Under the pieces are notes generated by a model, which saw only the letters and a program-made list of their open reading frames with translations, was not told the DNA's origin and made no database searches. Positions 26,994 to 46,003 of a stretch of 64,000 bases of DNA are shown here, in pieces. Location of the stretch: positions 1 to 64,000 of the forward strand of contig NZ_JAILWA010000001.1 in the NCBI RefSeq assembly GCF_025699255.1, read 5' to 3'. The translations under genes and the position numbers were made by a program. The stretch comes from Nitrosopumilus sp. GTDB taxonomy: Archaea; Thermoproteota; Nitrososphaeria; Nitrososphaerales; Nitrosopumilaceae. Position 1 is the first letter of the stretch. Every line of letters begins with the position of its first letter.

Positions 26994-27497
26994 ATGTCTA
27001 CTCTGTTAGAAAAACAAATCAAAGTAAATCGTATTGTTACGACAAGTATTGAACACGCCAGAGCAATTGAAGACCCTGCTCGAGCAAAAATCGTAGAAAT
27101 CTTATACCGTCAAGCAATGTCTGCAGACCAAATCGCCACTGCACTCAAAAAGACAGGATACAAAAAAGCACTTACAACTGTCCGACATCACTTAGAGATT
27201 CTCAAAGAATCTGGTCTAATAGAGATTGCAAAAATTGAAGAATCACGTGGAGCCATAACAAAATACTATAGTACAACAACAAAACTACTTGATTTTCAAA
27301 CTCCTGAAGATTTTGAATCGACGTATTCAAAAATTATAGACAACACCTCTACCAAAATCGAAAAGATCCTCAAAGGATTAACTCCTAAAACCTCGAAAAC
27401 CAAAGGGAAAAAATCTGCAGAATACTCTCAGTATTTGGTCATGGAAATAATGAACCGTGCTATGACAAATGTATTTGAAAACTCTGACAAAAAATAA
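26994..27497 (+). CDS. ArsR-like winged-helix regulator
   Basis: 167 residues. Residues 20-95 have the ArsR layout: ARAIEDPARAKIVEILYRQ, MSADQIATALKKTGYKK, ALTTVRHHLEILKESGLIEI and a wing SRGAITKYYSTT. There are no cysteine metal ligands, so it is not a classical arsenic or zinc sensor. The C-terminal helix likely dimerises. It heads a possible unit with two downstream genes and has a long, dyad-rich promoter region. Confidence 0.8.
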   Translation: MSTLLEKQIKVNRIVTTSIEHARAIEDPARAKIVEILYRQAMSADQIATALKKTGYKKALTTVRHHLEILKESGLIEIAKIEESRGAITKYYSTTTKLLDFQTPEDFESTYSKIIDNTSTKIEKILKGLTPKTSKTKGKKSAEYSQYLVMEIMNRAMTNVFENSDKK

Positions 27498-27534: not shown

Positions 27535-27849
27535 ATGGTACGAGTGTTTTACAGTCAAAAGACGGAGGATCTCATTGAAAAGATGACTCTGACTAACTGG
27601 AGAAGCCAAGTTCAAGATGAACTCGGTAAGGAACACCAGGATATGTCAGATAATTGGAAAATGTGTGCAATTGGAGAACGCATACGTATTGAAGGACGAG
27701 ATCTAGAGTCTATAAAAGATCTTTCTCCCGAAGCGATCCAACTTGGATATGACTTTTCAATTGCCATGCAAGAAAAAGACAATCAAAAAGCATTAGAAAT
27801 AATTACAAAGATAGAACAACTGCCAACAATCTGGAGAGATGAAAAATAA
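27535..27849 (+). CDS. Conserved protein of unknown function
   Basis: 104 residues, not recognised. Helical and soluble (TEDLIEKMTLTNWRSQVQDE; NQKALEIITKIEQLPTIW). Its stop codon TAATG overlaps the ATG of the next gene by one base, so the two are translated together. Confidence 0.65.
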   Translation: MVRVFYSQKTEDLIEKMTLTNWRSQVQDELGKEHQDMSDNWKMCAIGERIRIEGRDLESIKDLSPEAIQLGYDFSIAMQEKDNQKALEIITKIEQLPTIWRDEK

Positions 27850-28253
27850 TGGATGAAAAAGCAATCAAATTACTTTCTGAAAAAAATCTTGTCTTTATTG
27901 CAACAATTATGAAAGATGGTTCTCCACAAGTTTCTCCTGTTTGGGCAAATTATGAAAATGGATTTGTTTTGGTTAATACTGCTGAAGGTAGAATAAAACA
28001 CAAAAATGTTTTACGAGATCCACGTGTTGCAGTTTCAGTTGTATCAAAAGACAATCCACTTGACATGACAACTATTCGTGGAACTGTAGAAGAACTAATT
28101 CCTGATTATGAATACAAACATGCAGACAAGCTTACACAACAATACATGAGACGTGAACATTATCCTTTCAAACGTGATGATGAAAAAAGAGTCATACTAA
28201 AAATAAAACCAAACAAAGTATTTGTTTTGCCTGAATTAAAAATGTCAGAGTAA
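27849..28253 (+). CDS. Pyridoxamine-phosphate-oxidase-like FMN/F420 binding protein
   Basis: 134 residues. Split-barrel pattern: NLVFIATIMKDGSPQVSPVW, FVLVNTAEGRIKHKNVLRDPRVAVSVV, TTIRGTVEEL and a VILKIKPNKVF end. The RIKHKNVLRDPRV helix region fits the PPOX class with F420 or FMN binding. Ammonia-oxidising archaea use F420, so an F420-linked reduction is plausible; substrate unknown. Coupled to the gene before it. Confidence 0.8.
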   Translation: MDEKAIKLLSEKNLVFIATIMKDGSPQVSPVWANYENGFVLVNTAEGRIKHKNVLRDPRVAVSVVSKDNPLDMTTIRGTVEELIPDYEYKHADKLTQQYMRREHYPFKRDDEKRVILKIKPNKVFVLPELKMSE

Positions 28254-28265
28254 CAATTTTTAATG

Positions 28266-28287
28266 TTTCTAAATTCGAATTTAGAAA
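28266..28287. repeat. 22-bp palindrome, copy 1 (perfect)
   Basis: Arms TTTCTAAATTC and GAATTTAGAAA, perfect over all 11 pairs. Lies between two convergent genes, 12 bp after the oxidoreductase stop. Related copies at 31713, 32352 and 32422 share the arms, and all four continue with TA after AGAAA. Confidence 0.9.
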
Positions 28288-28335
28288 TATAATACATTCA
28301 GTAGGGTAAATTAGAAAAAAGGTAGCATAGACAGT

Positions 28336-28713
28336 TTAACGGCGACGTTTAGCTGTCTTTCTCTTAGGAGCGGCTTTGCGTTTAGCTGCAGCTTTTCTCT
28401 TTGGTGCTGCTTTGCGTTTAGCTGCCTTTCTCTTAGGAGCTGCTTTTTTAGCTGCAGTTCTTCTCTTAGGAGCGGCTTTGCGTTTAGCTGCCTTTCTCTT
28501 AGGAGCTGCTTTTTTAGCTGCAGTTCTTCTCTTAGGAGCGGCTTTTCTCTTAGGAGCTGCTTTACCTGCATTCTTCCTTCGAGTTGCTGCTGCCTTTCTC
28601 TTACGAGCTGCTGCTGCTTTTAGTGCTTCAGCTGCTTTTTTAGCTGCATTTCTCTTTCGAGTTCTTGCTGCTTTTTTAGCTGCTTCGGCTCTTTTGGCTT
28701 TAGATATTGCCAT
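28336..28713 (-). CDS. Histone-H1-like Lys/Ala/Arg-rich repeat protein
   Basis: 125 residues made almost wholly of Lys, Ala, Arg and Pro. Two near-identical 22-residue units (APKRRTAAKKAAPKRKAAKR plus two) and related fragments fill residues 52-125. Composition is that of H1-tail or HU-tail proteins, which coat and condense DNA without sequence preference. Several thaumarchaea carry such genes. The nucleotide repeats are 66 bp and nearly exact, so length may vary between strains. Confidence 0.75.
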   Translation of the reverse strand: MAISKAKRAEAAKKAARTRKRNAAKKAAEALKAAAARKRKAAATRRKNAGKAAPKRKAAPKRRTAAKKAAPKRKAAKRKAAPKRRTAAKKAAPKRKAAKRKAAPKRKAAAKRKAAPKRKTAKRRR

Positions 28714-28814
28714 GACTGATTTCGAAAATCATCTGTGTTATATGGTAAAAGTCACACATTACTACGCATTATATAGAAAAATTTGACACTTTTTTTATTT
28801 TTTAAAATTTACGA

Positions 28815-29300
28815 TCAACAATTTGTAATACAAACCACAGCTGTATCGACAGTTGATTGATCTTTTTGTGGACGAATAATTATTTTGTATTGTTTTTCTT
28901 CATCAAATGGAACATCAAACTGTGTTGTTTTTTCAACTGCTTTGTTTGGTTCTAACCATTCTAAAAGCAAGTCTTTAGATGAGAATTCTCCATAAACTGC
29001 TTGATGTTTTTGTTCTTTTTCATCTACAATGTATAATTGTCCTCCTGAAAAGAGAGTTTTTTCATCTCCGATATTTTTTGCAGTGATTCCAATCATAACA
29101 AACGTATTTTCTGGCATTACATCCTTGCTTCCTTCATGAGTTCCTTCAAAAGTGACTACATATTCTACAGGACCTACGGTAATTTTTTCTCCTGCAACTG
29201 ATTCAATGTAATTTGTTGTATATTGTGTGTACATGTAATTTGCAATTATCATTGAAGCTATAATTGCACCAACCACAATTACAACTCCGATTCTTGCCAT
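28815..29300 (-). CDS. Membrane-anchored extracytoplasmic DUF4352-like domain
   Basis: 161 residues. One N-terminal span (VVIVVGAIIASMIIANYMYT) and then a beta-sandwich. The pattern MIGITAKNIGDEKTLF, GGQLYIVDEKEQKHQ and PFDEEKQYKIIIRP fits the immunoprotective/DUF4352 Ig-like type. Two C-terminal cysteines (VVCITNC) may form a disulfide. Probably faces the outside of the membrane. Role unknown. Confidence 0.65.
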   Translation of the reverse strand: MARIGVVIVVGAIIASMIIANYMYTQYTTNYIESVAGEKITVGPVEYVVTFEGTHEGSKDVMPENTFVMIGITAKNIGDEKTLFSGGQLYIVDEKEQKHQAVYGEFSSKDLLLEWLEPNKAVEKTTQFDVPFDEEKQYKIIIRPQKDQSTVDTAVVCITNC

Positions 29301-29585
29301 AATTCATCTGAATTATTTTGGTATATAGTTGAAACGCATAATATTGCTCAAAAACCCTGCCTATTTTGAGGCAAATTTGGTTCATTTTTGATTTTTTGTT
29401 AGAACAAAAACACACACATGATTATCTAGTAATTTGTTGTAGACTATTTGATCAAGCCTTGGGACTGTTTTAGTCATTAATTACTATCTTGGGGTTTTTG
29501 ATCTTTTTTGCGATCTATTCTGGTTTGTAGCTTTTACGTCTGACATTAGGATCTGCTTAAATTCTTCAGTTTGGGATTTGTACCA

Positions 29586-30191
29586 ATGACTAAAACAGTT
29601 ACTATTGCAGCAATTCTAGCAGTTTCTGCTGGATTATTGTTTGCAGTACCAATGGCCGTTTATGCACATGATGTTGGTAGTTGGAAAGACCTTGATTCTG
29701 CAACTAAAGCAGTAAAAGGAAATTCTCTAAAATTGACCGTATCTGCTCATGGTGATATCACTAAAGATGGTAGTATGTTTGATACTACTACAAACAAAGC
29801 AGTTGTGGGATATGCATGGGTTGAAGCTAATCCAAGAGATGATGGCAAAGTCTATGGCTTTGTTGCAGCATTACATCCTTTGTTTAGAGATTCAAACCAA
29901 AATCCTGATGCATGGCATACACACAGTGTTGCTTTACAACCAAGTAATGGTCCAAATTTCTGTCTTGACTTTGCAGATCTTGGAACCACACAAGCTGGAA
30001 TTTCCATCAAAGGAAATGATCTAAAATTATCTACACCATTAAAACAATCTGGTGTAATCTATGGTGATTTAGCAGCAGCAACATCATTCACAATTACAAC
30101 TCCGCCTGCAAATGGTGCATGTGATGATGGTGAATTACAAGTAAGAGCAAACGGAATTGCAAGAGGGCATGCAGTAGGAATTACTGAATAA
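29586..30191 (+). CDS. Secreted protein of unknown function
   Basis: 201 residues from the ATG at 29586 (MTKTVTIAAILAVSAG); a TTG five codons upstream is less likely because it would precede the signal peptide. Signal peptide ends PMAVYA. The mature part is beta-rich with two Cys (NFCLDF; GACDDGEL) that may pair. Contains HDVGSWKDLDSATKAV directly after cleavage and many His (DAWHTHSVAL). No family recognised. T-rich terminator-like stretch follows. Confidence 0.7.
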   Translation: MTKTVTIAAILAVSAGLLFAVPMAVYAHDVGSWKDLDSATKAVKGNSLKLTVSAHGDITKDGSMFDTTTNKAVVGYAWVEANPRDDGKVYGFVAALHPLFRDSNQNPDAWHTHSVALQPSNGPNFCLDFADLGTTQAGISIKGNDLKLSTPLKQSGVIYGDLAAATSFTITTPPANGACDDGELQVRANGIARGHAVGITE

Positions 30192-30226
30192 TCTCTACTT
30201 TTTCATCTTTTTTTATTCAAAATTTA

Positions 30227-30335
30227 GGGGGTTGAGCTTTTACGCATGATGATAATAGTTTGGGTATGTTTAGCTGGGAGAGCTTGGTGGAATTAGGGTT
30301 GCTTGTTGTAGTTAGGCACAAGTGTTCAACCCCCC
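30227..30335 (+). ncRNA. Candidate structured non-coding RNA closed by a G5/C5 helix
   Basis: GGGGGTTGAGC (30227-30237) pairs with GTTCAACCCCC (30324-30334), 11 pairs with one G-U. Inside are AGCT-GGGAG-AGCT (30272-30284) and CTTGT/ACAAG (30302-30306 with 30318-30322). About 47% G+C in an AT-rich spacer. No open frame explains it. It does not match tRNA, 5S, SRP or RNase P hallmarks I can recall. Strand is not certain, as the stem is symmetric; plus is chosen because a T-rich stretch and the end of the previous gene precede it. Confidence 0.4.
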
Positions 30336-30380
30336 ATCAAAATACTTATTTTTGAAAATTTTACATTGTGACTAAACTAG

Positions 30381-30428
30381 ATAATTTACAAGGGGGGTTT
30401 AACGCCTAGGCATAATTTTGTAAATTAT
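30381..30428. repeat. 11-bp perfect inverted repeat with a G6 loop
   Basis: ATAATTTACAA (30381-30391) and TTGTAAATTAT (30418-30428) enclose a loop that contains GGGGGGTT and the palindrome GCCTAGGC. GGGGGGTT (30392-30399) is complementary over 8 bases to AACCCCCC (30328-30335) in the element before it, so the two structures could compete. It begins right after the stop of the 51-residue minus-strand ORF. Confidence 0.8.
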
Positions 30429-30429
30429 A

Positions 30430-30585
30430 TTATTTTACCAAATTTTCGGTTATTGATGTAATCCAATCAAAAACTTGTAAAAATAAACCCGATGATAACT
30501 CTCTGAATTCGTCAAATATGTTATTTGTAGATGCAAATGTTTCATTAATTGATGATTCATCAATCTGTAGTGATGTATACTTCAT
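30430..30585 (-). CDS. Small ORF, 51 aa, unknown
   Basis: Reads MKYTSLQIDESSINETFAST then NNIFDEFRELSSGLFLQVFD and WITSITENLVK. The second half forms an amphipathic helix with many aromatics. ATG start; an inverted repeat ATGTGTG/CACACAT lies upstream (30618-30641). The hairpin with the G6 loop starts one base after its stop. Expression is not certain. Confidence 0.4.
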   Translation of the reverse strand: MKYTSLQIDESSINETFASTNNIFDEFRELSSGLFLQVFDWITSITENLVK

Positions 30586-30617
30586 TCTTTATTTTCGAAT
30601 AATTTTGATTTTACTGT

Positions 30618-30641
30618 ATGTGTGCACTTTTGGACACACAT
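30618..30641. repeat. 7-bp inverted repeat
   Basis: ATGTGTG (30618-30624) and CACACAT (30635-30641), 10-base loop. It sits 33 bp upstream of the 51-residue ORF start on the minus strand, a possible operator position. Confidence 0.5.
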
Positions 30642-30718
30642 TTTATGTCAAATAAGGGGGGTTTTTACAAAAAATTACCCATATGGTGTGGTTTGGGATT
30701 GTTTTTGAAACTAATTTC

Positions 30719-30805
30719 TTAACGTTGATTCAATTCTTTTTGAACTGTTTTTACAATGTAATGTACTGCTAGTGCGATTCCCATCACTTTGAGAAAATTA
30801 TTCAT
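30719..30805 (-). CDS. Micro-gene C, 28 aa, with perfect Shine-Dalgarno
   Basis: MNNFLKVMGIALAVHYIVKT then VQKELNQR. AAGGAGGT lies 8 bases before the ATG, a full anti-SD match, which is rare for chance ORFs in this AT-rich genome. The short hydrophobic part with flanking Lys suits an amphipathic or membrane-associated peptide. Its start overlaps the end of micro-gene B by 8 bp. Confidence 0.5.
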   Translation of the reverse strand: MNNFLKVMGIALAVHYIVKTVQKELNQR

Positions 30806-30887
30806 GGGTTTTAACCTCCTTGTTCTCATATGTTTCAAGAATCTCATCTATCATTTTGATGATGTTCAATTTTGAATCAACTCCCAT
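30798..30887 (-). CDS. Micro-gene B, 29 aa
   Basis: MGVDSKLNIIKMIDEILETY then ENKEVKTHE: one amphipathic helix with acidic and basic ends. It overlaps micro-gene A by 22 bp and micro-gene C by 8 bp, giving a chain of three overlapping tiny frames. Its 3' part contains the Shine-Dalgarno of micro-gene C, so translation of the two may be coupled. Confidence 0.4.
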   Translation of the reverse strand: MGVDSKLNIIKMIDEILETYENKEVKTHE

Positions 30888-30952
30888 CGTTTTTCAGTAT
30901 CTTTCAGTCTCAATCTGCTGACATTGATCCTGACATTGATTTCGTAGTTCAT
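30866..30952 (-). CDS. Micro-gene A, 28 aa
   Basis: MNYEINVRINVSRLRLKDTE then KRWELIQN. First of the chain. AATATTTTATT lies about 20 bp upstream in the minus direction, close enough for a leaderless start near the ATG. The perfect palindrome GTTCAT-TTT-ATGAAC is 31 bp upstream. No similarity recognised. Confidence 0.35.
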   Translation of the reverse strand: MNYEINVRINVSRLRLKDTEKRWELIQN

Positions 30953-30982
30953 GGTTGCATGCCTGAATAAAATATTGACTAT

Positions 30983-30997
30983 GTTCATTTTATGAAC
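30983..30997. promoter_or_regulatory. Perfect palindrome GTTCAT-TTT-ATGAAC, possible operator
   Basis: 6-bp arms around TTT. It lies between the micro-gene chain (minus) and the small membrane-protein gene (plus) whose ATG at 30992 is inside the right arm. The adjacent AATAAAATATT block could serve as TATA for both directions, so a dimeric regulator here could control both. Confidence 0.45.
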
Positions 30998-31243
30998 ACC
31001 ACCAAAGTTGCAATCATGGATAAAACAAAGACCTTGTTTTTTGAAGCCTTCAATTTGAGAATTTGGCTTTCAATGAAACCTGTTTCCGGTTTGCATATTG
31101 TTGGGTTGTTTGTTGTAATTTTTGTTGTTTTCATGTTGTATTATGGTGAATTTATGATAAAAGGGCCGCGTAGAACTGATAAATCATCTATTTTTCTAAA
31201 ACGTTTTCAGCAAAAATCTTGCTGTTTTATCATATTTTTCTGA
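30992..31243 (+). CDS. Small single-span membrane protein
   Basis: 83 residues; a start at ATG 31016 (MDKTKTLFFEAFNL) is equally possible. One span (HIVGLFVVIFVVFMLYYGEF) followed by a basic tail. The last 16 codons run into the convergent DUF2299-like gene, so the true C-terminus could be questioned. Function unknown. Confidence 0.45.
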   Translation: MNTTKVAIMDKTKTLFFEAFNLRIWLSMKPVSGLHIVGLFVVIFVVFMLYYGEFMIKGPRRTDKSSIFLKRFQQKSCCFIIFF

Positions 31244-31645
31244 AACACTATCTATTGCTTCAAACATGGTCTGCTGATTGATATTTTCTTTGTCATCTAA
31301 TACAACATAAACTCCAATCTTTTGTTTTCCATCTTCTGTAATTATTTTATTAATTGCTTGAATTGAATAACAGAATTCTCCTACCTTTTTCTCAAATTTT
31401 TCTTTTTCTTCAGGATTAAATCCTAAATATCTTGCAATTTGATTGTTTTTCATCACTACTTTGGCGCCTACTACTAGTATTCCTGGTTGTCCTTTTGGTT
31501 CAAAAATCTCTACTGGAATTCCGTATGGTCCTGCATGTTTAATTATGATGTGAAAACTATTTTCAGGATTTTTAATTTCTTCAAACGAAAGGCTCTCGTG
31601 AATAACCCATCTTTCTACATTATCTCTCATCCTGGTTGTACTCAT
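31196..31645 (-). CDS. DUF2299-like protein
   Basis: 149 residues from ATG 31645 (MSTTRMRDNVERWVIHESLS); a GTG four codons upstream is in frame. Alpha/beta: SFHIIIKHAGPYGIPVEIFE, GILVVGAKVVMKNN, then a helix and IGVYVVLDDKE. The layout is that of small archaeal DUF2299 proteins, which look like type III secretion chaperones; this match is from memory of the pattern and is not certain. Soluble. One copy of the 22-bp palindrome lies upstream. Confidence 0.55.
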   Translation of the reverse strand: MSTTRMRDNVERWVIHESLSFEEIKNPENSFHIIIKHAGPYGIPVEIFEPKGQPGILVVGAKVVMKNNQIARYLGFNPEEKEKFEKKVGEFCYSIQAINKIITEDGKQKIGVYVVLDDKENINQQTMFEAIDSVSEKYDKTARFLLKTF

Positions 31646-31712
31646 AAAAAACATCACACCATAGTTCTATATGATTCTAAATCCAATTGATTGCCTTAGT
31701 AAATTTACAATA

Positions 31713-31734
31713 TTTCTAAATTCGAGTTTAGAAA
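31713..31734. repeat. 22-bp palindrome, copy 2
   Basis: TTTCTAAATTC then GAGTTTAGAAA; one arm position differs from the perfect copy. It lies 39 bp after the stop of the two-span membrane-protein gene and 68 bp upstream of the DUF2299-like ATG (both minus strand). Confidence 0.9.
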
Positions 31735-31772
31735 TAGCTCTTTTCAATATGTGAACAACAAACAAAAATTTG

Positions 31773-32000
31773 CTATATGTTTACATTAAATCCTGAATCT
31801 ATTCCTGGAATTGATGCTGCAATCAAAATATTTACAATAATTCCAATTATCATAAATACAATACCTAGATAGAGACAATTTCTTGCTTTACGTGGATCAT
31901 CTTGTCGTAAAATAAAAAATGCAATTATTCCTCCTATGACTCCAAAGAAAATTGGTAACAAAAACCATACGTTGCTTCTTGGTTTTTCTGGATATGTCAT
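31773..32000 (-). CDS. Small membrane protein, two spans
   Basis: 75 residues. Spans at about 11-30 (VWFLLPIFFGVIGGIIAFFI) and 41-63 (YLGIVFMIIGIIVNILIAAS), joined by RQDDPRKARNC. The middle motif RQDDPRKAR is typical of a family of small archaeal membrane proteins without assigned role. Follows the zinc-ribbon gene by 11 bp on the same strand. Confidence 0.7.
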   Translation of the reverse strand: MTYPEKPRSNVWFLLPIFFGVIGGIIAFFILRQDDPRKARNCLYLGIVFMIIGIIVNILIAASIPGIDSGFNVNI

Positions 32001-32011
32001 ATTGTGTTACC

Positions 32012-32260
32012 TTATTTTGCAATTACTGCTTTTTTCTGCAATTGTGTTATCTCTATTTCAACTGTTTCTAAAGGATCTTCTACTTGATTACGTCTTATCG
32101 AAAACATTTTTGGTTTTTCAAAGTCATCTGTACAATCAGGACATGCATAAACTAAAACTCTGTGTTCGTTTGGGGCTTTAGGATTGGATAATCTTGGATA
32201 ATATACCAATCTTGCACCGCAATCAACACAATATCTGTTGGCCCTTCTAGTTCTGACCAA
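32012..32260 (-). CDS. Small zinc-ribbon protein
   Basis: 82 residues from a TTG start. CVDCG and CPDC, about 25 residues apart, form one zinc ribbon with a basic N-terminus (VRTRRANRY). The C-terminal half is acidic/basic (VEDPLETVEIEITQLQ). Likely nucleic-acid binding. First gene of a unit with the two-span membrane protein. Confidence 0.65.
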   Translation of the reverse strand: MVRTRRANRYCVDCGARLVYYPRLSNPKAPNEHRVLVYACPDCTDDFEKPKMFSIRRNQVEDPLETVEIEITQLQKKAVIAK

Positions 32261-32351
32261 TGTAATCCTCCTGCATTATTCTTAATGTGCGATCATCTAT
32301 TAGATCTATGTTGTCTAATAGAGTAAACTAATTACTAACAACCGATCAATG

Positions 32352-32373
32352 TTTCTATATTCGAATTTAGAAA
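32352..32373. repeat. 22-bp palindrome, copy 3
   Basis: TTTCTATATTC then GAATTTAGAAA; one mismatch pair. Lies 92 bp upstream of the zinc-ribbon start and 70 bp from copy 4, downstream of tRNA-Asn on the minus strand. Confidence 0.9.
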
Positions 32374-32421
32374 TATGTTTAATTTTATATGATGATTGTT
32401 TTTCATATGTCAAAATTTATG

Positions 32422-32443
32422 TTTCAAAACTCGAATTTAGAAA
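32422..32443. repeat. 22-bp palindrome, copy 4
   Basis: TTTCAAAACTC then GAATTTAGAAA; two positions of the left arm differ. It begins 7 bases after the 3' end of tRNA-Asn, where a tRNA transcript would end or be trimmed. Confidence 0.85.
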
Positions 32444-32450
32444 TAAGAGC

Positions 32451-32523
32451 GCCTCCCACCAGACTTGAACTGGTGACCAACCGGTTAACAGCCGGTTGCT
32501 CTACCACGCTGAGCTAGGGAGGC
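32451..32523 (-). tRNA. tRNA-Asn (GTT)
   Basis: 73 bases. Acceptor stem GCCTCCC/GGGAGGC, D arm TAGCTCAGCGTGGTAGAGCA, anticodon arm CCGGCTGTTAACCGG with anticodon GTT, T arm with GTTCAAGTC. All four stems pair. No intron and no encoded CCA. Only tRNA seen in the window. Confidence 0.97.
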
Positions 32524-32897: not shown

Positions 32898-33455
32898 CTA
32901 TTTGTCAATGCCTTTTTTCTTCTCAAATGCATAAATGCCGTCTAAGAATACTCTATGATCTTTGTTCTTAACTTTTGATTTAAGTTCAATATTTGCTGCA
33001 GTTTGAGTAATGTCTGTCCATACTTCTCCTGTAAGGATTACGTCTTCTCCTTTTGGAACTACTTTTGTGTTTCCTACAATATTTGTGATTCTTGGAGCTC
33101 GTTCACCTTGAAAGTTTTCAATTAGAATTTTTTTCCCTTCTACTTTTACTGTGATAGGAAAGTGTGAAAAAACAATTTTCATTTTTATTGTATATCCTGT
33201 TACTAAACCCTCACAAATATTTTTGATAATTGATCTTGCAGTATGTAGAATTGCATAATCTCTTTTCTTTTGATTAATTGCAGATAAGAGAACTTTGCCG
33301 TCGTTAACTTCTACATTAATTGGTATGCTTCTGAAACTTTTGTATGTTTTTCCTAATGGTCCTACAAATGATACCATGTGTTTATCTACTGATACTGTTA
33401 CACCTTCAGGAATGTCTACCTGATCTTTGAATTCTTCTAGTTGATTAGTAGACAT
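32898..33455 (-). CDS. rpl6: Ribosomal protein uL6
   Basis: 185 residues. VSFVGPLGKTYKSF and the second alpha/beta repeat with the C-terminal IYAFEKKKGI fit archaeal uL6, which binds 23S rRNA near the factor site. It overlaps S8 by 11 bp. In many archaea L32e, L19e, L18 and S5 follow; here they do not. Confidence 0.95.
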   Translation of the reverse strand: MSTNQLEEFKDQVDIPEGVTVSVDKHMVSFVGPLGKTYKSFRSIPINVEVNDGKVLLSAINQKKRDYAILHTARSIIKNICEGLVTGYTIKMKIVFSHFPITVKVEGKKILIENFQGERAPRITNIVGNTKVVPKGEDVILTGEVWTDITQTAANIELKSKVKNKDHRVFLDGIYAFEKKKGIDK

Positions 33456-33837
33456 AACCTATCAAAAATCCTCCAATTCCTTTTTGCGATGCTTCATGAT
33501 GAGACATTACTCCTTGGTTTGTTGTAACTAGAAGCATTCCACGATCGTATGCTGGTAGATACTGTTGTTCCCAATTATTGTATTCGTCATTTTTGACTTT
33601 GAATCTTGGGGATATGGCACCACACTTGTTAATTTTTGCTAATAGTTTAATTTTGAATTTTCCTCCTCTTTTGTCATCAATATGTTCGAACTCTCCAATG
33701 TATCCGTCTTTTTGCAAAGTTTTGAGAACTTCAATACCTAATTTTGATGTCGGAAGTATGACACAGTCTGATTTTCTTCGTGATTCGTTATTGTAAAGTG
33801 TGACAAATAGATTTGCTAAGATATTTGTTGCTGGCAT
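33445..33837 (-). CDS. rps8: Ribosomal protein uS8
   Basis: 130 residues. Begins MPATNILANLFVTLYNNESR and ends with VTTNQGVMSHHEASQKGIGG, the uS8 signature that contacts helix 21 of 16S rRNA. Between S14 and L6 as usual for the spc group. Confidence 0.95.
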   Translation of the reverse strand: MPATNILANLFVTLYNNESRRKSDCVILPTSKLGIEVLKTLQKDGYIGEFEHIDDKRGGKFKIKLLAKINKCGAISPRFKVKNDEYNNWEQQYLPAYDRGMLLVTTNQGVMSHHEASQKGIGGFLIGYVY

Positions 33838-33843
33838 GTTATA

Positions 33844-34023
33844 TCACTTGTTTTTCCTGAACCCTAAAGATGTTGCGACTTCTCTGAAGCATCGTCTGCA
33901 TAACATTAAATCATATTTTTGGATGACAGCTGTATAGTCTCCACATCTTTTACACCATTTTGAACCTCTTCCAAAGTCATGTTTTTTTCTACCTGTTGCT
34001 TCATAAGATCTATCTTTTGCCAT
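33844..34023 (-). CDS. rps14: Ribosomal protein uS14, zinc-binding type
   Basis: 59 residues, read directly from the L5-S8 gap. Four cysteines (WCKRCGDY and LMLCRRCFRE) form the zinc knuckle of the short archaeal uS14; the C-terminus SLGFRKNK is typical. Its ATG shares one base with the L5 stop (TAATG), so translation is coupled. Confidence 0.95.
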   Translation of the reverse strand: MAKDRSYEATGRKKHDFGRGSKWCKRCGDYTAVIQKYDLMLCRRCFREVATSLGFRKNK

Positions 34024-34544
34024 TATGTTACGGTCACTCCAAATTCTTTTGCTAGATAATCTTTTGCTTCTTGACTTTTTATGATGTGTGATTTTCCTAC
34101 TCTGGCTTTGTGTTTACTTCGTGTTCTTATTCCATATCCTGGTCTTGTTAATGTAACTGAAATACCTAAACCTAAAATTCCGATCTGTGGATCATATTTC
34201 ACTCCTGGAATATCAATATGTTCTCTAATTCCAAATGAAAAATTACCAAAATTATCAAATGATCTGCCATTTACGGTGTTGCCTTTCGCTTCTAGTAATC
34301 TTTTTAGTAACGCCACGGCATCGTTGCCTCTAATTGTAACTGCAGCTCCGATTGGTTCTCCTTTTCTTACTCCCCAATCTCTTTGTGTTTCTTTTGCATT
34401 TCGTGCAGAAGATTTTTTTCCAGATATTTGATCAAGAGCTTTTCTTGCAATGCTAATTATGTCTCCTGATTTGCCTACACCCATATTCAATACCACTTTC
34501 TCTAATGAGATTTTTTTCATTGGGGATTCTGTTACTTGAGACAT
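34023..34544 (-). CDS. rpl5: Ribosomal protein uL5
   Basis: 173 residues. EKVVLNMGVGKSGD, KETQRDWGVRKGEPIGAAVT and the FSFGIREHIDIPGVKYDPQI region are uL5 hallmarks; it binds 5S rRNA. Position between S4e and S14 is standard for archaea. Confidence 0.96.
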   Translation of the reverse strand: MSQVTESPMKKISLEKVVLNMGVGKSGDIISIARKALDQISGKKSSARNAKETQRDWGVRKGEPIGAAVTIRGNDAVALLKRLLEAKGNTVNGRSFDNFGNFSFGIREHIDIPGVKYDPQIGILGLGISVTLTRPGYGIRTRSKHKARVGKSHIIKSQEAKDYLAKEFGVTVT

Positions 34545-34548
34545 AAGA

Positions 34549-35265
34549 TCACTTTAATTGAATAATTGGCTCCTCTTTTCCAATTGGCATAATGATGTCT
34601 GCGGGGATTTCAATTTTTCTATCTCCTAATGAGAGTATGACTCTTTTTGGCAGAATGAATGTTCCTTCTTCTATGGTTTCAATCTTGCCAATTCTTCCTG
34701 CATTATTTCCACGTGTTACTAATCCTTGACATCCTGTTTCTAATTTAATTACCTCTATAATTTTTTGATCTGGAATTTGTATTAGACATGTATCTCCAAC
34801 ATTTACTTTAGTATCTGAAATAATTGCACGACCATCATGGAATCCGATTTGCAATTTTCCTTTGTTGATAGTTGTCTTGCTTACAACTCTAACAAGTTTC
34901 TTAGATTTTTCTGATTCGTTAATCTTTATTGGTTTTAACAACTTGTCTTCTGTTGGAACTAGACGATAAACATCTGTAACATCTTGAAGTTCTACAACAT
35001 CCATTAATCCAATTGCATGATGAAGTGATTTTCTTACAACTCCATCAATCTTTACTCTTCCAGAATATATTGCAGTCTTTGCTTCTCTTAAACTTGTAAC
35101 TATATTCAACATATCTCTAAGAAATACTGCAGTTGGTACAGAATGATTCTTTTTATGTGGTCCTGGTTTGACTGTGATTACAAATCGTTTATCTTTTCTT
35201 GTAATTCCCCAGAATTGTGGGGCCATTTGTCTTTTGAGTTTTTTACTGCCTGAAATGCTTACCAT
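34549..35265 (-). CDS. rps4e: Ribosomal protein eS4
   Basis: 238 residues. Archaeal/eukaryotic eS4: N-terminal KKLKRQMAPQFWGITRKDKR, an S4 RNA-binding part with SGRVKIDGVVRK, and a KOW-like end (GNNAGRIGKIETIEEG). Its ATG overlaps the L24 stop by one base. Confidence 0.96.
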   Translation of the reverse strand: MVSISGSKKLKRQMAPQFWGITRKDKRFVITVKPGPHKKNHSVPTAVFLRDMLNIVTSLREAKTAIYSGRVKIDGVVRKSLHHAIGLMDVVELQDVTDVYRLVPTEDKLLKPIKINESEKSKKLVRVVSKTTINKGKLQIGFHDGRAIISDTKVNVGDTCLIQIPDQKIIEVIKLETGCQGLVTRGNNAGRIGKIETIEEGTFILPKRVILSLGDRKIEIPADIIMPIGKEEPIIQLK

Positions 35266-35717
35266 TATTTCTCATCTTCCTCTTTTTTGACCTTATCTGC
35301 TACTTTTGTTTCTTTAGGAACCTCTTTCACTGTTTCTGATTTTGGTGCAGTCTTTGGTTGATTGCTTGGATCTTTTCCTTCTAATTTTGCAATTCTCCAT
35401 TTGTCTTCTCCATTTAGTGATGTAACAACTAGATTTGAAGTGTGAATGTAAACATCATATTTTTCACCTTTTGTTGCTTCTTTTTTAATACCCTCAACTG
35501 CAACACTACTTTTCTGTGTAGATATTTTAGAAATCTTGCCGTCTACTCCTTTGAATTCTCCTCTAACAATTTTGATGCTGTCTCCTTCAACTACTCTTAC
35601 ACTTCTTTTTCCATATTTTTTCTGAAGATCTTTTGAAAGTGCACTTCCAAGTTGTTTACTTTTTGTAGTGTAAGTTGATTGATAAATCATCTGATTGCGC
35701 ATTTTTGTTGGTTTCAT
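35265..35717 (-). CDS. rpl24: Ribosomal protein uL24 with acidic/Lys-rich tail
   Basis: 150 residues. The KOW part [20 protein letters not shown] identifies uL24, an assembly initiator of the large subunit. After residue about 115 there is a charged extension ([18 protein letters not shown]) ending KKEEDEK that typical archaeal L24 lacks; it may be disordered. Confidence 0.94.
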
Positions 35718-35721
35718 TTTA

Positions 35722-36144
35722 TCATACCACCATTGATGCCAAGTTAGCTACTCTTGGCCATTTTTCTGTTGCTTCAGCTGCTACTGGTCCTTTGATGTCC
35801 GTTCCTTTTGTTTCTCCTTCTGGAGTAATTAACACTGCTGCATTATCTTCAAAACAAACTCTTACACCGTTTAATCTTCTAATTGCATATTTTTGTCTAA
35901 TGATTACGGCACCGTAAACTTGTTTTCTTAATTCTGCAGGACCTTTTTTAACTACTACATTACAAAAGTCTCCCACAGATGCTGATGCTAGTCTTGATGA
36001 TCTAGTGTGATGTCTTGGAACATTAATGACTTCTAAAATTTTGGCCCCTGAATTATCTGCACATACTATGTTTGCACCGATAGGAATTACTTTAGTTACA
36101 TATGGTCGAAATTCTTCTACTCCTTTACCTGCTTGCTTTGCCAT
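35722..36144 (-). CDS. rpl14: Ribosomal protein uL14
   Basis: 140 residues. [38 protein letters not shown] and [17 protein letters not shown] are uL14 hallmarks. It contacts uL19-like partners and 23S rRNA at the subunit interface. Its start overlaps the S17 stop. Confidence 0.96.
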
Positions 36145-36467
36145 TATGCTTTAACCTCCACAACTACATAAGATACTGATTTTGAGATTGGTCTGCATTC
36201 TGCAGTCAATACGTGATCTCCTGTTTCGACATCTAAACATGCTGGTACATGTGCATGTATGGTACTTGTGCCTCTGGCATATCTCTTAAACTTGTTAAAG
36301 TAAATTGGGGCATCTTTTTGTAACGTAATTGTTTGTCTTGCTTTGCTTCCTGTAACTTTACCATCAAAGAGCTTTCCTCTAATTGATAAACCTCCGTGGA
36401 ATGGACAATGCTTATCCTCACATTCTCTTGTTGGTTCTTTTACTTTTAATCCGATGTTTTGAGTCAT
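36144..36467 (-). CDS. rps17: Ribosomal protein uS17
   Basis: 107 residues. Archaeal form with an N-terminal ECEDKHCPFHGGLSIRGKLF, the OB-fold region ARQTITLQKDAPIYFNKFKR and HAHVPACLDVETGDHVL. The Cys/His pattern near the start (CEDKHCPFH) may bind zinc, as in some archaeal S17. Overlaps Rpp29 by 4 bp. Confidence 0.95.
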   Translation of the reverse strand: MTQNIGLKVKEPTRECEDKHCPFHGGLSIRGKLFDGKVTGSKARQTITLQKDAPIYFNKFKRYARGTSTIHAHVPACLDVETGDHVLTAECRPISKSVSYVVVEVKA

Positions 36468-36730
36468 GTTTTTCCTCCTATTCTGTCAAAAGGTCTTTTT
36501 GCAATTTTGGTACCTTCTATTTCGATTGATTTACCATCAACTGTGAATTCCCAATTGTTGGTATTTTTTGCAATTGTTTTTGCACCTTTTTTTGTATTAA
36601 TCGTAAACATTGATTTTGTTTCATTAACAATTCTTCCATTTAATCCTATTATTTCGGGATTAGTAGACTGAACAATTTTGGTTTCTAATCCGATTAATTC
36701 ATGTGAAAATATGTTATCTACATTAATCAT
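36464..36730 (-). CDS. rnp1: RNase P protein component 1 (Rpp29/POP4)
   Basis: 88 residues. HELIGLETKIVQSTNPEIIG, GRIVNETKSMFTINTKKGAK and the terminal IAKRPFDRIG match archaeal Rpp29, the Sm-like barrel protein that supports the RNase P RNA in tRNA 5' maturation. It is found between L29 and S17 in most archaeal S10/spc groups. Confidence 0.93.
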   Translation of the reverse strand: MINVDNIFSHELIGLETKIVQSTNPEIIGLNGRIVNETKSMFTINTKKGAKTIAKNTNNWEFTVDGKSIEIEGTKIAKRPFDRIGGKT

Positions 36731-36933
36731 TTTTCTTTCCTCATTTCGTTCAATCTAGTTAGCATTCTTGCAATGTCATGACGTATTGGTTTAAGTTTAC
36801 CGCTTTCTTTTCTCAATGTTCCTTTAGAAGCATCAATTCTAAGTTTAGCAAGTTCACTACGTGATTCATTGATTTTACTTTTAAGATCTTTTTCGTTTAA
36901 TTGTTTTATCGTTTTCATACTGAGTCTGGTCAT
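36727..36933 (-). CDS. rpl29: Ribosomal protein uL29
   Basis: 68 residues. Two-helix protein: [20 protein letters not shown] and [20 protein letters not shown]. It sits near the exit tunnel. Overlaps both neighbours by 4 bp. Confidence 0.94.
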
Positions 36934-37718
36934 TTCATCTTGGCCTCCTCCTCTTCTAATGTGTCAATGGATTCCATTTTCTTTGCTTCTAATGCAATTC
37001 TCTCTGATTCTGATTTGGCTTTATCTGCCTTACCTTTAACTTTAACAACTTCAACTTTAGCTCCTTCAACATCAATCTCTTCAACTTTGATTTTTTCATC
37101 TTGTGCTTGTTTTGCTTTCATTGCTTTTTCTGTTCTCATTTCAAATTCTGGTATCAGTCTTTCTTTTCTAGCAATTCTGATTCTGATTCCAATCAAACCC
37201 ATGGCCGTTTTGACATGTGCGATGTCTTCATCCACAACAATTTCGGCATGATGTCCTGCTCTTGGTAAAATTCCTTGAGTATGTTTTTCAAATGCAGAAC
37301 GGTCTCCTCTAAGTTTTCCTGATATTGTAATTTGAACGCCCATTGCGCCTCCTTCCATAATTTGTTTCAAAGTCCACATTGTTGCTCTTCTAAATGCAGT
37401 TCCTCTTTCCAAGTGGGACGCCATCCTATTACACATTACACTAGGTGCAAGTTCTGGTTTTTCAATTTCAACCACTGAAATTTGTGGATTTTTTAATCCA
37501 AAATCTGTCGCTAGTTTTTCAGTAAGTGTTCTTATTCCTGAACCTTTTCTTCCAATGACAATTCCTGGTCTTGTTACATGTAATGCTACTCTGGTTCCTA
37601 CAGGTGTTTTTGAAATTTCTGCATGTGAAAACCCGGCATCTTTGATTGCTTCTCTAAGATAATCTTTGAGTAGCATCATGTTGTAGTTGTCTTTAATTAC
37701 ATTTTTTACTGCAGACAT
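36930..37718 (-). CDS. rps3: Ribosomal protein uS3 with charged C-terminal extension
   Basis: 262 residues. KH domain with [20 protein letters not shown], then [20 protein letters not shown] and [20 protein letters not shown]. The last 50 residues are Lys/Glu-rich ([19 protein letters not shown] ... EEEEAK), longer than usual. uS3 lines the mRNA entry channel. Confidence 0.96.
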
Positions 37719-37720
37719 TT

Positions 37721-38179
37721 CTAAATCTCCTTTGCCACCAATTCTACATGTGTTAATACATTGTTCTTTGGAGTAGCTCTACCCATTGCTCTTGGGATGA
37801 ATCTCTTTACAATTACTCCTTTGTGAACTGTTGCATTAACAATTCTTAATCTGTCTAAATCCATTCCTTTGTATTCTGCATTTGATTCTAAATTGTCTAA
37901 TACTTTGATGAATTCTTTTGCAGTTTTTTGTGGATATCTTCCAGACATTACTCCCGGATCTGGTCTGTGTCCAACTTGATTCTTATATCTTCTAAATGGA
38001 ACTGCTCTGTTCTTATCAACTACTGCAATAAGATAATCTCTTGCTTTCTCAATTGATAATCCTTTGATGGAAACTGCAACTTCTCTAGCATGTTTATGTG
38101 AAATATCTTTTTCCCTTAATGAAGAACGTACGTGTCTGGTTGGATCATAATTTTGGAAAGCGTAATCGAATCTACCCAT
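37721..38179 (-). CDS. rpl22: Ribosomal protein uL22
   Basis: 152 residues from ATG 38179 ([20 protein letters not shown]); a GTG three codons upstream overlaps the S19 stop. [20 protein letters not shown] and [12 protein letters not shown] fit archaeal uL22, which reaches into the exit tunnel. Confidence 0.95.
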
Positions 38180-38184
38180 AACAA

Positions 38185-38580
38185 TCACTTCAATGGTACA
38201 TAGAGACTGGATCTTGATGCACCAACACCTGGGGCACCGTGTGAAACTCTCTTGTTTGTTATTACATATTCTCCTAGATAATGTCCAATCATCTCAGTTA
38301 CTATTGCAACTGGTTGGAATTCTTTCCCTGAAAATACATTTACTGTAACACCTACCATGTATGGCAGAATAATTAAATCTCTAACATGAGTCTTTATTGG
38401 ATTTTTTATTTTTCCTGCTTTTGCAGCTTTGATTTCTTCAATAAGTTTTCTTTTTCCATCTGTGATTCCTCTTGTAAGAGATCGTCTTTGCCTGGAATTG
38501 AATAATGTAAATAATTTTTCTAATGATAAAGCATCAAGTTCCTCTTGTGGAATTCCTCTGTATAAAAATTCTTTAACCAT
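38185..38580 (-). CDS. rps19: Ribosomal protein uS19
   Basis: 131 residues. KTHVRDLIILPYMVGVTVNV, GHYLGEYVITNKRVSHGAPG are uS19 hallmarks. It follows L23 by 41 bp; in most archaea L2 lies in this gap, but here the 41 bases hold no gene. Confidence 0.96.
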   Translation of the reverse strand: MVKEFLYRGIPQEELDALSLEKLFTLFNSRQRRSLTRGITDGKRKLIEEIKAAKAGKIKNPIKTHVRDLIILPYMVGVTVNVFSGKEFQPVAIVTEMIGHYLGEYVITNKRVSHGAPGVGASRSSLYVPLK

Positions 38581-38621
38581 TTTTCTTCTCCATTGTTGTA
38601 CTTCGAGTTTTATGGTCCATA

Positions 38622-38888
38622 TTATAGCATTCCTATCTTCGTTGCCAAATCTCTGGCCTTTTCAGTATTTTCAAACTGCACAAAAGCTTTTTTGCCATAA
38701 ATTGTTCTTGCAGTGTTTACTTTTTTGACTTTTTCATTGTAAAGTGTATTTACTGCTTCTGAAATTTCAGTTTTATTTGCAGATATTTCTACTATGAAGC
38801 AAATCTTACTTTCGTTTTCAACCATAGCAAATGTCTTCTCAGTAATGTAAGGTTTAATGATAATTTTCATTGCTTGATCTACATTCAT
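38622..38888 (-). CDS. rpl23: Ribosomal protein uL23
   Basis: 88 residues. IIKPYITEKTFAMVENESKI, VEISANKTEISEAVNTLY and KKAFVQF fit uL23, the docking site of SRP at the tunnel exit. Overlaps L4 by 4 bp. Confidence 0.95.
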   Translation of the reverse strand: MNVDQAMKIIIKPYITEKTFAMVENESKICFIVEISANKTEISEAVNTLYNEKVKKVNTARTIYGKKAFVQFENTEKARDLATKIGML

Positions 38889-39697
38889 TGTCTTTTCACC
38901 ATGATCTCCAAATGTGTTGATTTAATTTTTCCAATTTCTTCGATTGCTGATTTTGAATAGACTGTTAATCTAATTGGATCTGAGCCTGGTGCTAAATCTA
39001 AAACACTTAATTCTTTAACACTTCTAACGTCAACTCCAGGAATTGCGCCAACTGCTTTTGATAAGTTTGCTGAATCTGTAGTTACAAATAAGACACTTTT
39101 TCCAACTTTCTTGCTTCTACCTCTAAGTCTTGATTGACCTGAACGTGGTTTTCTTGCATCCAATCTTTCAATATCTTGTGTTAACTTTAATGATTCTAGA
39201 ACTTTGGTAATCTCACTTGCCTTGGAAATTGTTTCGATGTCATTTGATACAATGATTGGAAATGATTCTATGCCTTTGATTTTATGTCCTCTGCTTTCTA
39301 TAAGATCTTTTGATGCTGTTGCTGCAATAGCTGAACACAATGCAAGTTTATTTTCTTTTTTGTTTAGTTTTTTGTAAATTACCTTTTCGACTATTGGTGG
39401 GTGTGCTTGTCTTCCTCCTCTGGTAGATGCGACTTCTGCTCCTTGCCCTTGTCTGCCTCCTCCTCCGCCTTGCATTCTTGCAACACGTGATACTCCTTGA
39501 CCTGTTGGAGGATCATTCGAATCTGCAACAACATCCATTCCTGCCATTGGTTTTCTCCCTTGTTTTTGGAATTTATGAGATGTTAGATTAGTGAAAGCCT
39601 TGTGAATTAGTTCTCTTCTAAATGGAGTTGAGAAAACAATTGGAAGTTCTATGTCTGTATCTTTAGTTCCAGTTGTTGTGTAAGAGGATGTTTTCAT
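38885..39697 (-). CDS. rpl4: Ribosomal protein uL4
   Basis: 270 residues. PTGQGVSRVARMQGGGGGRQ with a Gly-rich loop that enters the tunnel, GGRQAHPPIVEKVIYKKLNK and DARKPRSGQSRLRGRSKKVG are archaeal uL4 features. Overlaps L3 by one base. Confidence 0.96.
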   Translation of the reverse strand: MKTSSYTTTGTKDTDIELPIVFSTPFRRELIHKAFTNLTSHKFQKQGRKPMAGMDVVADSNDPPTGQGVSRVARMQGGGGGRQGQGAEVASTRGGRQAHPPIVEKVIYKKLNKKENKLALCSAIAATASKDLIESRGHKIKGIESFPIIVSNDIETISKASEITKVLESLKLTQDIERLDARKPRSGQSRLRGRSKKVGKSVLFVTTDSANLSKAVGAIPGVDVRSVKELSVLDLAPGSDPIRLTVYSKSAIEEIGKIKSTHLEIMVKRQ

Positions 39698-40692
39698 TAT
39701 ACAACTACCTCCAAGATATTTGGTTTGTTAATTTTTGTTGGAACATTTCTAATTTGACTTCTTAATTTGATTAATCTTTTGTATGTGCCTGGAACTGAAC
39801 CTTTTAGAATAATGAAATCTCCTTTAACTAAACCAAAATGTTTGAACCCTCCTTCAGGATTAATTTTAATCTCATTTGATTCTGTGTTTCCCATGATTAG
39901 AATTCTTTTGTCGTATTCTACTCTTTGATGAAAACCTGTTTGTCCTGCTCTTGGAACTGTGTACATAACACTTTGTGGTGAAATTGGACCCAATGAACCA
40001 ACTTCTCTAACTGTTTTTCTTGATTTGTGCTGTTTCTTCTTCACATTCCATCTTCTCATGACTCCTTGCCATCCATGACCTTTTGTAATTGCTGCAACAT
40101 CAACGGATGAACCTGTTTCAAAAATTTGATCAATTTTAATTTCTTTTCCTAATGATTCTTTAACATGTGCAAACTGCTTTTCAATATCTCCACCACTAAC
40201 AGATGCTTCAAAGATGTATGGCTTTTTCTGTTCTAATCCTGCTGCTCTTGGAGATACTGCAACAATTGCAAAAATTTCTTTAATTTTTCTTAATCTTGAT
40301 TCTGCATTTTCAATTGAACCTGAAGTATTTTTTATTGTGATTTCTTTTGCAATGCTTTTTGGAATGTCTTCTGCATATACATCAAATTCTGCATGTTTTC
40401 CATCATGATCTTTTGAATATCCTCTAATCCCTAAAACTAAAACTGGTGGAGTAACTAACACTGTTCCCAGATTCACTAGTTGTTTTCCTGCATTGGGTAC
40501 TTTTTCTCGATCATCAATGCTGACAACTTGGACACATCCTGCTTTGAATCCACAATGTGCCAAAATTTTTGGTTCATCTGATGCTGATAATTTTGGCCAA
40601 GCTCTTATTCTGGCTTCCATGCTTCTTGCACGCACTCTTGGTGAATATGCAAGACTTCCTCTACGTGGTTGGTGTCTTTTTCGAGCTCCCAT
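39697..40692 (-). CDS. rpl3: Ribosomal protein uL3
   Basis: 331 residues. ARKRHQPRRGSLAYSPRVRA at the start, AITKGHGWQGVMRRWNVKKK near the peptidyl-transferase-proximal part and RAGQTGFHQRVEYDKRIL are typical. First gene of the ribosomal run on the minus strand. TTTAATA near 40728 could be its TATA box, with paired GTTAAC motifs just upstream. Confidence 0.96.
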   Translation of the reverse strand: MGARKRHQPRRGSLAYSPRVRARSMEARIRAWPKLSASDEPKILAHCGFKAGCVQVVSIDDREKVPNAGKQLVNLGTVLVTPPVLVLGIRGYSKDHDGKHAEFDVYAEDIPKSIAKEITIKNTSGSIENAESRLRKIKEIFAIVAVSPRAAGLEQKKPYIFEASVSGGDIEKQFAHVKESLGKEIKIDQIFETGSSVDVAAITKGHGWQGVMRRWNVKKKQHKSRKTVREVGSLGPISPQSVMYTVPRAGQTGFHQRVEYDKRILIMGNTESNEIKINPEGGFKHFGLVKGDFIILKGSVPGTYKRLIKLRSQIRNVPTKINKPNILEVVV

Positions 40693-40740
40693 GACTAAAA
40701 CGCATCATCGAATTCCCTCTATTAAACCATGTGAGATATC

Positions 40741-40770: not shown

Positions 40771-40785
40771 ACTGTGCCTAATTTA

Positions 40786-40896: not shown

Positions 40897-40900
40897 GATG

Positions 40901-43185: not shown

Positions 43186-43201
43186 ATTTTTCCAAACATT
43201 C

Positions 43202-44576: not shown

Positions 44577-44918
44577 ATGGTAAAACCTACTATAGAATTA
44601 CCAATTTCTAAGAAACCTACTGATATAGAACTAAAAAAACTTAAAGATTATTTTAAAGAAATGCCTGTGTCTGAAATTCTTACAGGTCTAAAATTTGCAA
44701 AAAATCGATGGTCTGCAAAAGATGCAGGAACTTTAAAGGTTGGTAGAAAAAGTATTATCCAAAAAGAAGTTCATTCTGTAACTACTGAACAAGCACAATG
44801 GCGATTAAAAAATTGGAAGATGATGATAGCAAATTATCGTAGACGTGGATATAGCTATCCTACAATATCTAGAATAAAGAAAATTTTGGTTCAAAAAAGT
44901 AAAAAGAAATCAAAGTGA
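44577..44918 (+). CDS. Conserved basic protein of unknown function
   Basis: 113 residues, basic. ATG lies just after a promoter-like stretch. WRLKNWKMMIANYRRRGYSY and the Lys-rich end (KKILVQKSKKKSK) suggest contact with nucleic acid. No known fold recognised; the start contains IELPISKKPTDIELKKLKDY. Confidence 0.6.
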   Translation: MVKPTIELPISKKPTDIELKKLKDYFKEMPVSEILTGLKFAKNRWSAKDAGTLKVGRKSIIQKEVHSVTTEQAQWRLKNWKMMIANYRRRGYSYPTISRIKKILVQKSKKKSK

Positions 44919-45352: not shown

Positions 45353-46003
45353 TTAGATAAAGATATCTGTTTTTTTCTCAACAATTTGTTGTTTGAGTGA
45401 ATCAGGCACATCTGGAATTGATGATTTAGTTTGTCCTGCTATGACGCTGTGAGCTTCTTCAAGAATTGCCAATGTGTCTGCATTTGCTTCCGGAGCTGCA
45501 CTCATGCTGTCTCCTATACCCATAGATGAACCAGACATTACATCTCCTAATATCTGAGATAAATCTTGCATGGATGCATTTGCTTCTGGCATAATTCCAC
45601 TAAGTGAAGGGCTTAGACCTTTGATTATTGCCATGCATGGACTAAGTGTAACTACTACATCTCCTAATTCTGACACCGTGTCTAATCTTAGTTTAACCTG
45701 CTCCATGGACAATTTTGCACCACTTACCATGTTTTTCATCTTTCTAACCTGTGCTAACTCTCCAGCATATGCTTGTGCATATCCATTTTTGTTATTTCTT
45801 TGAGCATTGACTATTTTTTCAAAAATCATATCATGTTTTTTCTTTAATTTCTCATCAATTCCATCTAGTTTAGATATTTGAAATTGTAATTTTTTTTGTG
45901 CAAAATCTATCTTGTTTTTTAGAGGTTCATCAGGCTTTACTTTGCCCATGACTCGCTGAGATATGCTTTCTCCCTCTGTTTTATTCCAAGAATTGCTGAT
46001 CAT
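45353..46003 (-). CDS. ESCRT-III (Snf7/CdvB) family protein
   Basis: 216 residues. Helical core: PLKNKIDFAQKKLQFQISKL, KKHDMIFEKIVNAQRNNKNG, AYAGELAQVRKMKNMVSGAK, and a helix with LRLDTVSELGDVVVTLSPCM. This is the Snf7-like fold of CdvB proteins. The C-terminal part is acidic/hydrophobic and has no clear winged helix, as in CdvB paralogues rather than CdvB itself. Thaumarchaea divide with the Cdv system; cdvA and cdvC are not here, so this is a dispersed paralogue. Confidence 0.85.
   Translation of the reverse strand: MISNSWNKTEGESISQRVMGKVKPDEPLKNKIDFAQKKLQFQISKLDGIDEKLKKKHDMIFEKIVNAQRNNKNGYAQAYAGELAQVRKMKNMVSGAKLSMEQVKLRLDTVSELGDVVVTLSPCMAIIKGLSPSLSGIMPEANASMQDLSQILGDVMSGSSMGIGDSMSAAPEANADTLAILEEAHSVIAGQTKSSIPDVPDSLKQQIVEKKTDIFI

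Follow-up and report, generated by a model that had tools for sequence, protein, structure and literature searches.

Why should an archaeal chromosome hold four nearly identical palindromes within 4.2 kb? The question is raised by a 64,000-nucleotide stretch of Nitrosopumilus sp. DNA (contig NZ_JAILWA010000001.1, positions 1 to 64,000; hereafter the window), in which a first-pass annotation had described the palindromes as 22-bp units, proposed that they could be an operator for a dimeric regulator, a 3'-end signal or a small dispersed repeat, and held that their clustering itself needed explaining. It does, and clusters of the same palindrome recur in the chromosomes of ammonia-oxidizing archaea (AOA). 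The palindromes are probably high-specificity sites for a dimeric AOA protein, predicted to gather it in one cluster per chromosome for a process that operates at the level of the chromosome.

Results

A 28-bp palindrome confined to one locus

The four copies, to which no strand is assigned, lie at 28263..28290 (site 1, ATGTTTCTAAATTCGAATTTAGAAATAT), between convergent genes for a PNPOx-like and a lysine-rich, H1-like protein; at 31710..31737 (site 2, ATATTTCTAAATTCGAGTTTAGAAATAG), between the start of a DUF2299 gene and the 3' end of the gene for a small membrane protein; and at 32349..32376 (site 3, ATGTTTCTATATTCGAATTTAGAAATAT) and 32419..32446 (site 4, ATGTTTCAAAACTCGAATTTAGAAATAA), which form a close pair 70 bp apart. 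Their mismatches to the 22-bp form TTTCTAAATTCGAATTTAGAAA number 0, 1, 1 and 2, all four are intergenic and each 22-bp copy is directly followed by TA, as had been noted from the letters; the gap between site 4 and the tRNA-Asn gene, given earlier as 7 bp, is 5 bp by the ARAGORN coordinates. One hundred dinucleotide shuffles led us to expect no chance copy in 64 kb. The earlier failure to find other copies in the window extends to the whole 1.65-Mb genome, where none beyond the four was found at up to three mismatches, and four points scattered at random over 1.65 Mb would share a 4.2-kb span with a probability near 6e-8.

Alignment of 336 sites with their flanks showed that the conserved unit is longer than 22 bp: it is a 28-bp palindrome with halves ATRTTTCWAAAYTC and GARTTTWGAAAYAT, outside of which information falls to near zero. 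Among Nitrosopumilus sites, site-to-site identity is 0.88 across the 28-mer versus 0.32 in the flanks, where 0.28 is expected from composition. GC-rich genomes keep the outer arms and have the centre altered symmetrically, to CCCGGG in genome G020 and CCCGAG in G306 (TGTTTCCAAACCCGGGTTCTGAAACA is an example from the GC-rich lineages), which is the signature expected of a symmetric protein that reads both arms.

Close pairs fall, with few exceptions, into spacing classes of 59-60, 68-72 and 80-82 bp, with peaks at 60, 70-71 and 80-82 bp, and the classes differ by one helical turn. The periodicity at 10.5 bp has R = 0.81 when weighted by unique sequence, a measure in which related genomes are counted repeatedly, and R = 0.53 when distinct spacing values alone are taken. 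Overall, 94% of the sites are intergenic, and convergent, divergent and co-directional gaps are occupied as in the background. Taken together, sequence-specific conservation, symmetric variants and helical spacing give good support to the prediction that the element is a binding site for a dimeric protein.

The cluster is a trait of ammonia-oxidizing archaea

Searches of the whole genome and of related genomes revealed neither an even spread of copies nor a lack of conservation, but one locus and wide conservation among AOA. Within the genus, 83 of 95 genomes, and 54 of the 56 of good quality, carry 1-5 copies (mostly 2-5); in the genus genomes listed all copies sit at a single locus, and copy order and spacing are stable throughout. 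The sites of G043, for instance, lie at 703,318, 706,348, 706,985 and 707,056. A small dispersed palindromic repeat is excluded, since one genome after another keeps its copies at a single locus. Among 400 genomes from across the order, clustered copies occur in four families (f1, f2, f3 and f8), while the other families have none, or single matches at chance level. Nearly all AOA have 2-5 copies at one locus, in a cluster that mostly spans 1-8 kb and reaches 20 kb in Nitrososphaeraceae, and their non-AOA relatives lack them. A scan of GTDB contigs returned 119 stretches, mostly from AOA genera, with named loci in Nitrosopumilus, Nitrosarchaeum, Nitrosotenuis, Nitrosotalea, Nitrosopelagicus, Nitrososphaera, Nitrosocosmicus and Nitrosocaldus; about 21 were scattered bacterial matches. 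This distribution, across the order and GTDB, identifies the motif as an AOA trait.

Sites seemed at first to be absent from G020, G331, G229 and G306, which proved false, as sequence drift had hidden them. In G097, G048, G101, G024 and G201 rpl5 itself was not found, and the region is possibly unassembled. IMG/VR holds zero copies of the motif, and a viral or mobile origin was rejected on this ground. A text search with three exact strings from the motif gave no occurrence in the papers that it covered.

Two observations stand apart from the usual cluster. G018 carries a tandem array (L038:2522-2878) of three copies that recur every 168 bp or so and have conserved flanks; it is either another kind of element or a product of the assembly. 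The palindrome in its IUPAC form also occurs on four contigs (L097, L112, L120 and L127) of the Deltaproteobacteria metagenome-assembled genome ALJrbin.12, possibly as an unrelated dispersed repeat.

The cluster lies roughly opposite orc1

In all 28 single-contig genomes, which come from three families and are related to each other, the cluster lies 0.40-0.60 of the way round the chromosome from orc1/cdc6. Its distance from the exact orc1 antipode is at most 0.104 of the chromosome in all 28, with a median of 0.039.

The replication terminus was placed by AT skew at four-fold sites, corrected for gene strand. The switch is sharp (likelihood ratio 710 in G006), and in the complete genomes G006 and G012 it falls at the geometric midpoint (0.50). 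Switch locations are about 70-85 kb on G000:C1 (G000 is the window's own genome), 780-790 kb on G006:C1 and 1090-1100 kb on G012:C1. The AT skew of Nitrosopumilus changes sign over a span of 20-30 kb and marks the terminus far more sharply than GC skew does, and in G150 (Nitrososphaeraceae) the skew is too weak to place the terminus.

A candidate binding protein is encoded near the sites

An ArsR/HTH_20-type winged-helix protein encoded at 26994..27497 on the plus strand (Pfam HTH_20, E=1.3e-9) is the leading candidate binder. The protein is found mainly in AOA, and in most of those its gene is linked to the sites; genomes with sites in f1, f3 and part of f8 clearly encode it, and G311, G312 and G141 lack both the protein and the sites. 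G306 was at first seen to have the protein and no sites near the ribosomal operon; the prediction that its sites would lie beside the ArsR-like gene was borne out when a looser pattern found five variants within 3.3 kb, at 2985-2988 kb and 57 kb from rpl5. From this linkage we tentatively name the ArsR-like protein as the one that may bind the sites. Its nearest solved relative is PH1932, and its AlphaFold model (pLDDT 49) is too poor to use.

Two other binders were considered and rejected: ParB, which is absent from genomes that have sites, and CdvA, as Nitrosocaldus contigs (L067) carry sites although N. cavascurensis is reported to lack CdvA (PMC5797428).

Gene neighbourhood

Beside site 1, a PNPOx-family (pyridoxamine 5'-phosphate oxidase-like) gene at 27849..28253 on the plus strand (PF01243, E=2.7e-17) ends 12 bp before the 22-bp copy, as described earlier for an oxidoreductase. 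On the other side of the site, 28336-28713 encodes a lysine/alanine-rich protein of 125 amino acids with AAKRKAAPKRK repeats, like a eukaryotic histone H1 tail, and with no Pfam match. The tRNA-Asn gene (GTT; 32449..32523, minus strand; ARAGORN and Rfam) adjoins site 4. Beyond it, the 3' part of the ribosomal-protein operon (32898..37718, minus strand; rpl6, rps8, rpl5, rps4e, rpl24, rpl14, rps17 and rps3, named from their translations) is transcribed towards the sites, which it adjoins in most AOA. Anchoring by the operon was considered as the cause of the position and rejected, since the sites of G259 and G306 lie 14 and 57 kb away from it. Operons of this kind usually lie close to the origin, whereas the main ribosomal-protein operon of AOA (32898-44000 in the window) is found on the chromosome's terminus side.

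Further along, 44577..44918 on the plus strand encodes a small conserved protein of 113 amino acids with no assigned function, which is found together with cdvB and the sites at almost every locus examined, including those of other AOA families. The gene for a CdvB-type ESCRT-III (Snf7) protein lies at 45353..45949 on the minus strand (PF03357, E=1.6e-6); 0.2-6 kb separate it from the sites in other AOA families, and in the window, where the ribosomal-protein operon intervenes, the distance is 13 kb. Along Nitrosopumilus chromosomes the ArsR-like gene is followed by PNPOx, the sites, the ribosomal-protein operon, the gene for the small protein, cdvB and bioFB. In f2, f3, f8 and the g18/g24 genera bioBF comes first, followed by cdvB, the gene for the small protein, the sites and the ribosomal-protein operon, and in g18, g24 and g51 the ArsR-like gene lies 10-14 kb beyond this block. 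A single inversion of the sites-plus-operon block interconverts the two orders. The old neighbourhood is bioBF, cdvB, the sites, the ribosomal-protein operon and the ArsR-like winged-helix gene.

Discussion

The sites keep to a single locus and persist from one AOA family to the next, they show dimer symmetry and helical pairing, and they are indifferent to transcription, all of which points to a chromosome-level binding cluster. We infer that protein binds at the sites, and their function is, on balance, likely to be chromosomal, of a centromere- or Ter-like kind; the element has the look of a docking site, not described before, for a protein that organises or segregates the chromosome.

Several observations weigh against this reading. 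G311, G312 and G141 have no sites, so the system would be dispensable. Origin distance is conserved for genes generally (rho 0.46 between G006 and G150), and 18 of 24 near-terminus orthologues stay near the terminus, so that the position of the cluster may be passively inherited. In G000, G006 and G012, 47-54 kb separate the cluster from the AT skew switch, which lies towards the ribosomal operon, and this places the sites near the fork meeting point and not at it. As for the candidate binder, no ArsR-like orthologue was detected in G025, where sites are present; in three f8-g8 Nitrososphaeraceae genomes the best hit has 35-37% identity and lies near the origin; and the linkage of gene and sites could be inherited synteny.

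If the sites were instead operators of a local regulon, the ArsR-like repressor would control adjacent genes: PNPOx, a zinc-ribbon gene, or cdvB and the biotin genes elsewhere. The size and symmetry of the site suit a winged-helix dimer, the ArsR-like gene is often 1-2 kb away, and in Nitrosotalea- and Nitrosotenuis-type genomes one site precedes cdvB by about 180 bp, as one precedes bioB by about 70 bp in some Nitrososphaeraceae. Such a regulon nevertheless seems unlikely to us. The sites take gap orientations in background proportions, they stay while the neighbouring genes differ between families, none of the examined loci has one in the promoter region of the ArsR-like gene, and no copies occur elsewhere in the genome. 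The part of the first-pass proposal that stands is the site for a dimeric protein; background orientation and neighbour turnover argue against a transcriptional operator. The 3'-end signal fares worse. Three of the four window copies do form good RNA hairpins, with loops of 4-10 nt and not near-loopless as had been described, and of 279 distances measured from a site to the 3' end of a neighbouring gene, 69 are at most 30 bp. The copy next to the tRNA folds poorly (-2.2 kcal/mol, z -1.1), however, many copies lie in divergent or co-directional gaps, base identity is conserved beyond what pairing alone requires, and Rfam finds only the tRNA at the locus, with no family matching the palindromes. 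With just 2-5 copies per genome, an intrinsic terminator or 3'-end processing signal is scarcely credible.

The cluster adjoins the 3' end of the ribosomal-protein operon, not far from the orc1 antipode, a location that would suit a fork barrier or terminus (Ter) element that halts forks before they enter the operon head-on. Yet forks normally pass the cluster, as the skew switch lies beyond it in three genomes, perfect palindromes have no polarity, and in Nitrososphaeraceae the operon is not always on the same side of the antipode; this makes a barrier very improbable. The near-terminus position and 11-bp arms, as in dif, also call to mind a chromosome-dimer resolution site served by some other recombinase, a replacement that is conceivable as thaumarchaea are reported to lack XerA (PMC2958812). 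Here the arms have no spacer, and 2-5 recombination sites in a few kilobases would delete or invert the DNA between them, whereas order and spacing are stable across the genus; we give a dif-like role next to no weight.

The predicted dimer sites can be compared with several known systems. The parS sites of ParABS have a 16-bp TGTTTCACGTGAAACA-type consensus. They too are palindromes in few copies within kilobases, the AOA sites have a possible binder gene nearby, and the AOA outer half-site TRTTTC resembles TGTTTC of parS. This outer part is all that the 28-bp and 16-bp consensus sequences have in common; parS lies near the origin, the AOA cluster near the orc1 antipode in 28 of 28 genomes; and ParB (PF02195) has no match in G000 or the complete G006, both of which carry sites, the candidate here being a winged-helix protein. 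Tus/Ter and RTP/Ter differ in having polar sites at the replichore junction, whereas the AOA sites are symmetric and lie away from the skew switch. ArsR/SmtB-family operators are long, symmetric sites for winged-helix dimers. The AOA sites are likewise long and symmetric and have an ArsR-like gene nearby, a linkage from which its product may be their binder, but they lie outside that gene's promoter, at a single locus, and are indifferent to gene orientation.

Nearer in position are matS and tidL/tidR of the E. coli Ter macrodomain, which are palindromes, lie like the AOA sites towards the terminus and are bound by a dimeric protein, as is predicted in AOA. The 13-bp matS has 23 copies over 800 kb, and tid sites number two per genome (PMC3330122), a low copy number like that in AOA; the AOA element differs from matS in having 2-5 sites of unrelated sequence in 1-20 kb. 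MatP at matS ties the terminus to division (PMC6538776) and unloads MukBEF (PMC8669397), and a functional parallel with the AOA cluster is plausible; we do not claim homology. SegAB of Sulfolobales offers archaeal palindromes, a dimeric binder (predicted in AOA) and a role in segregation (PMC12284271). The SegB motif TCTAGASTCTAGA has 46 sites over the chromosome, mostly inside genes (PMC12284271), versus another motif in one, 94% intergenic cluster in AOA, and G000 has no ParA/SegA-type gene beyond two short, weak AAA_31 matches. Xer/dif uses a single site with 11-15 bp arms and a 4-10 bp spacer (PMC2958812), in contrast to 2-5 spacerless palindromes.

How would a chromosome-level cluster work? 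Each 28-bp site would hold one symmetric dimer, and dimers on two sites whole helical turns apart would lie on the same face of the DNA and could interact to form a local complex. This complex may serve as a fixed landmark on the terminus half of the chromosome, much like parS, matS or tid sites in bacteria. The cluster would then act in segregation, in terminus-side domain organisation or in controlling Smc-ScpA in that region, and would not act on how adjacent genes are transcribed. Thaumarchaea possess Smc and ScpA (PMC7055376); with XerA reported lacking, and with no ParB and only weak ParA-type matches in the window's own genome, there is an open slot for a loader, unloader or anchor. More speculatively, and with rather low probability, an ArsR-type dimer on the 28-bp palindromes might form a centromere- or Ter-like system that ties the completion of replication, and chromosome segregation, to Smc-ScpA and to division by Cdv/ESCRT-III, the cdvB gene of which belonged to the same ancestral locus.

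Few archaea on Earth are as abundant as AOA, yet ParB, SegAB and XerA, the archaeal and bacterial handles known for chromosome segregation and organisation, are undetected in the genomes examined or reported absent. A motif confined to a single locus across AOA families provides an exact DNA bait for its protein and a marker of that locus in living cells, and with it the question raised in PMC5120986, of the form that centromeres take in archaea and of their possible clustering, becomes directly testable.

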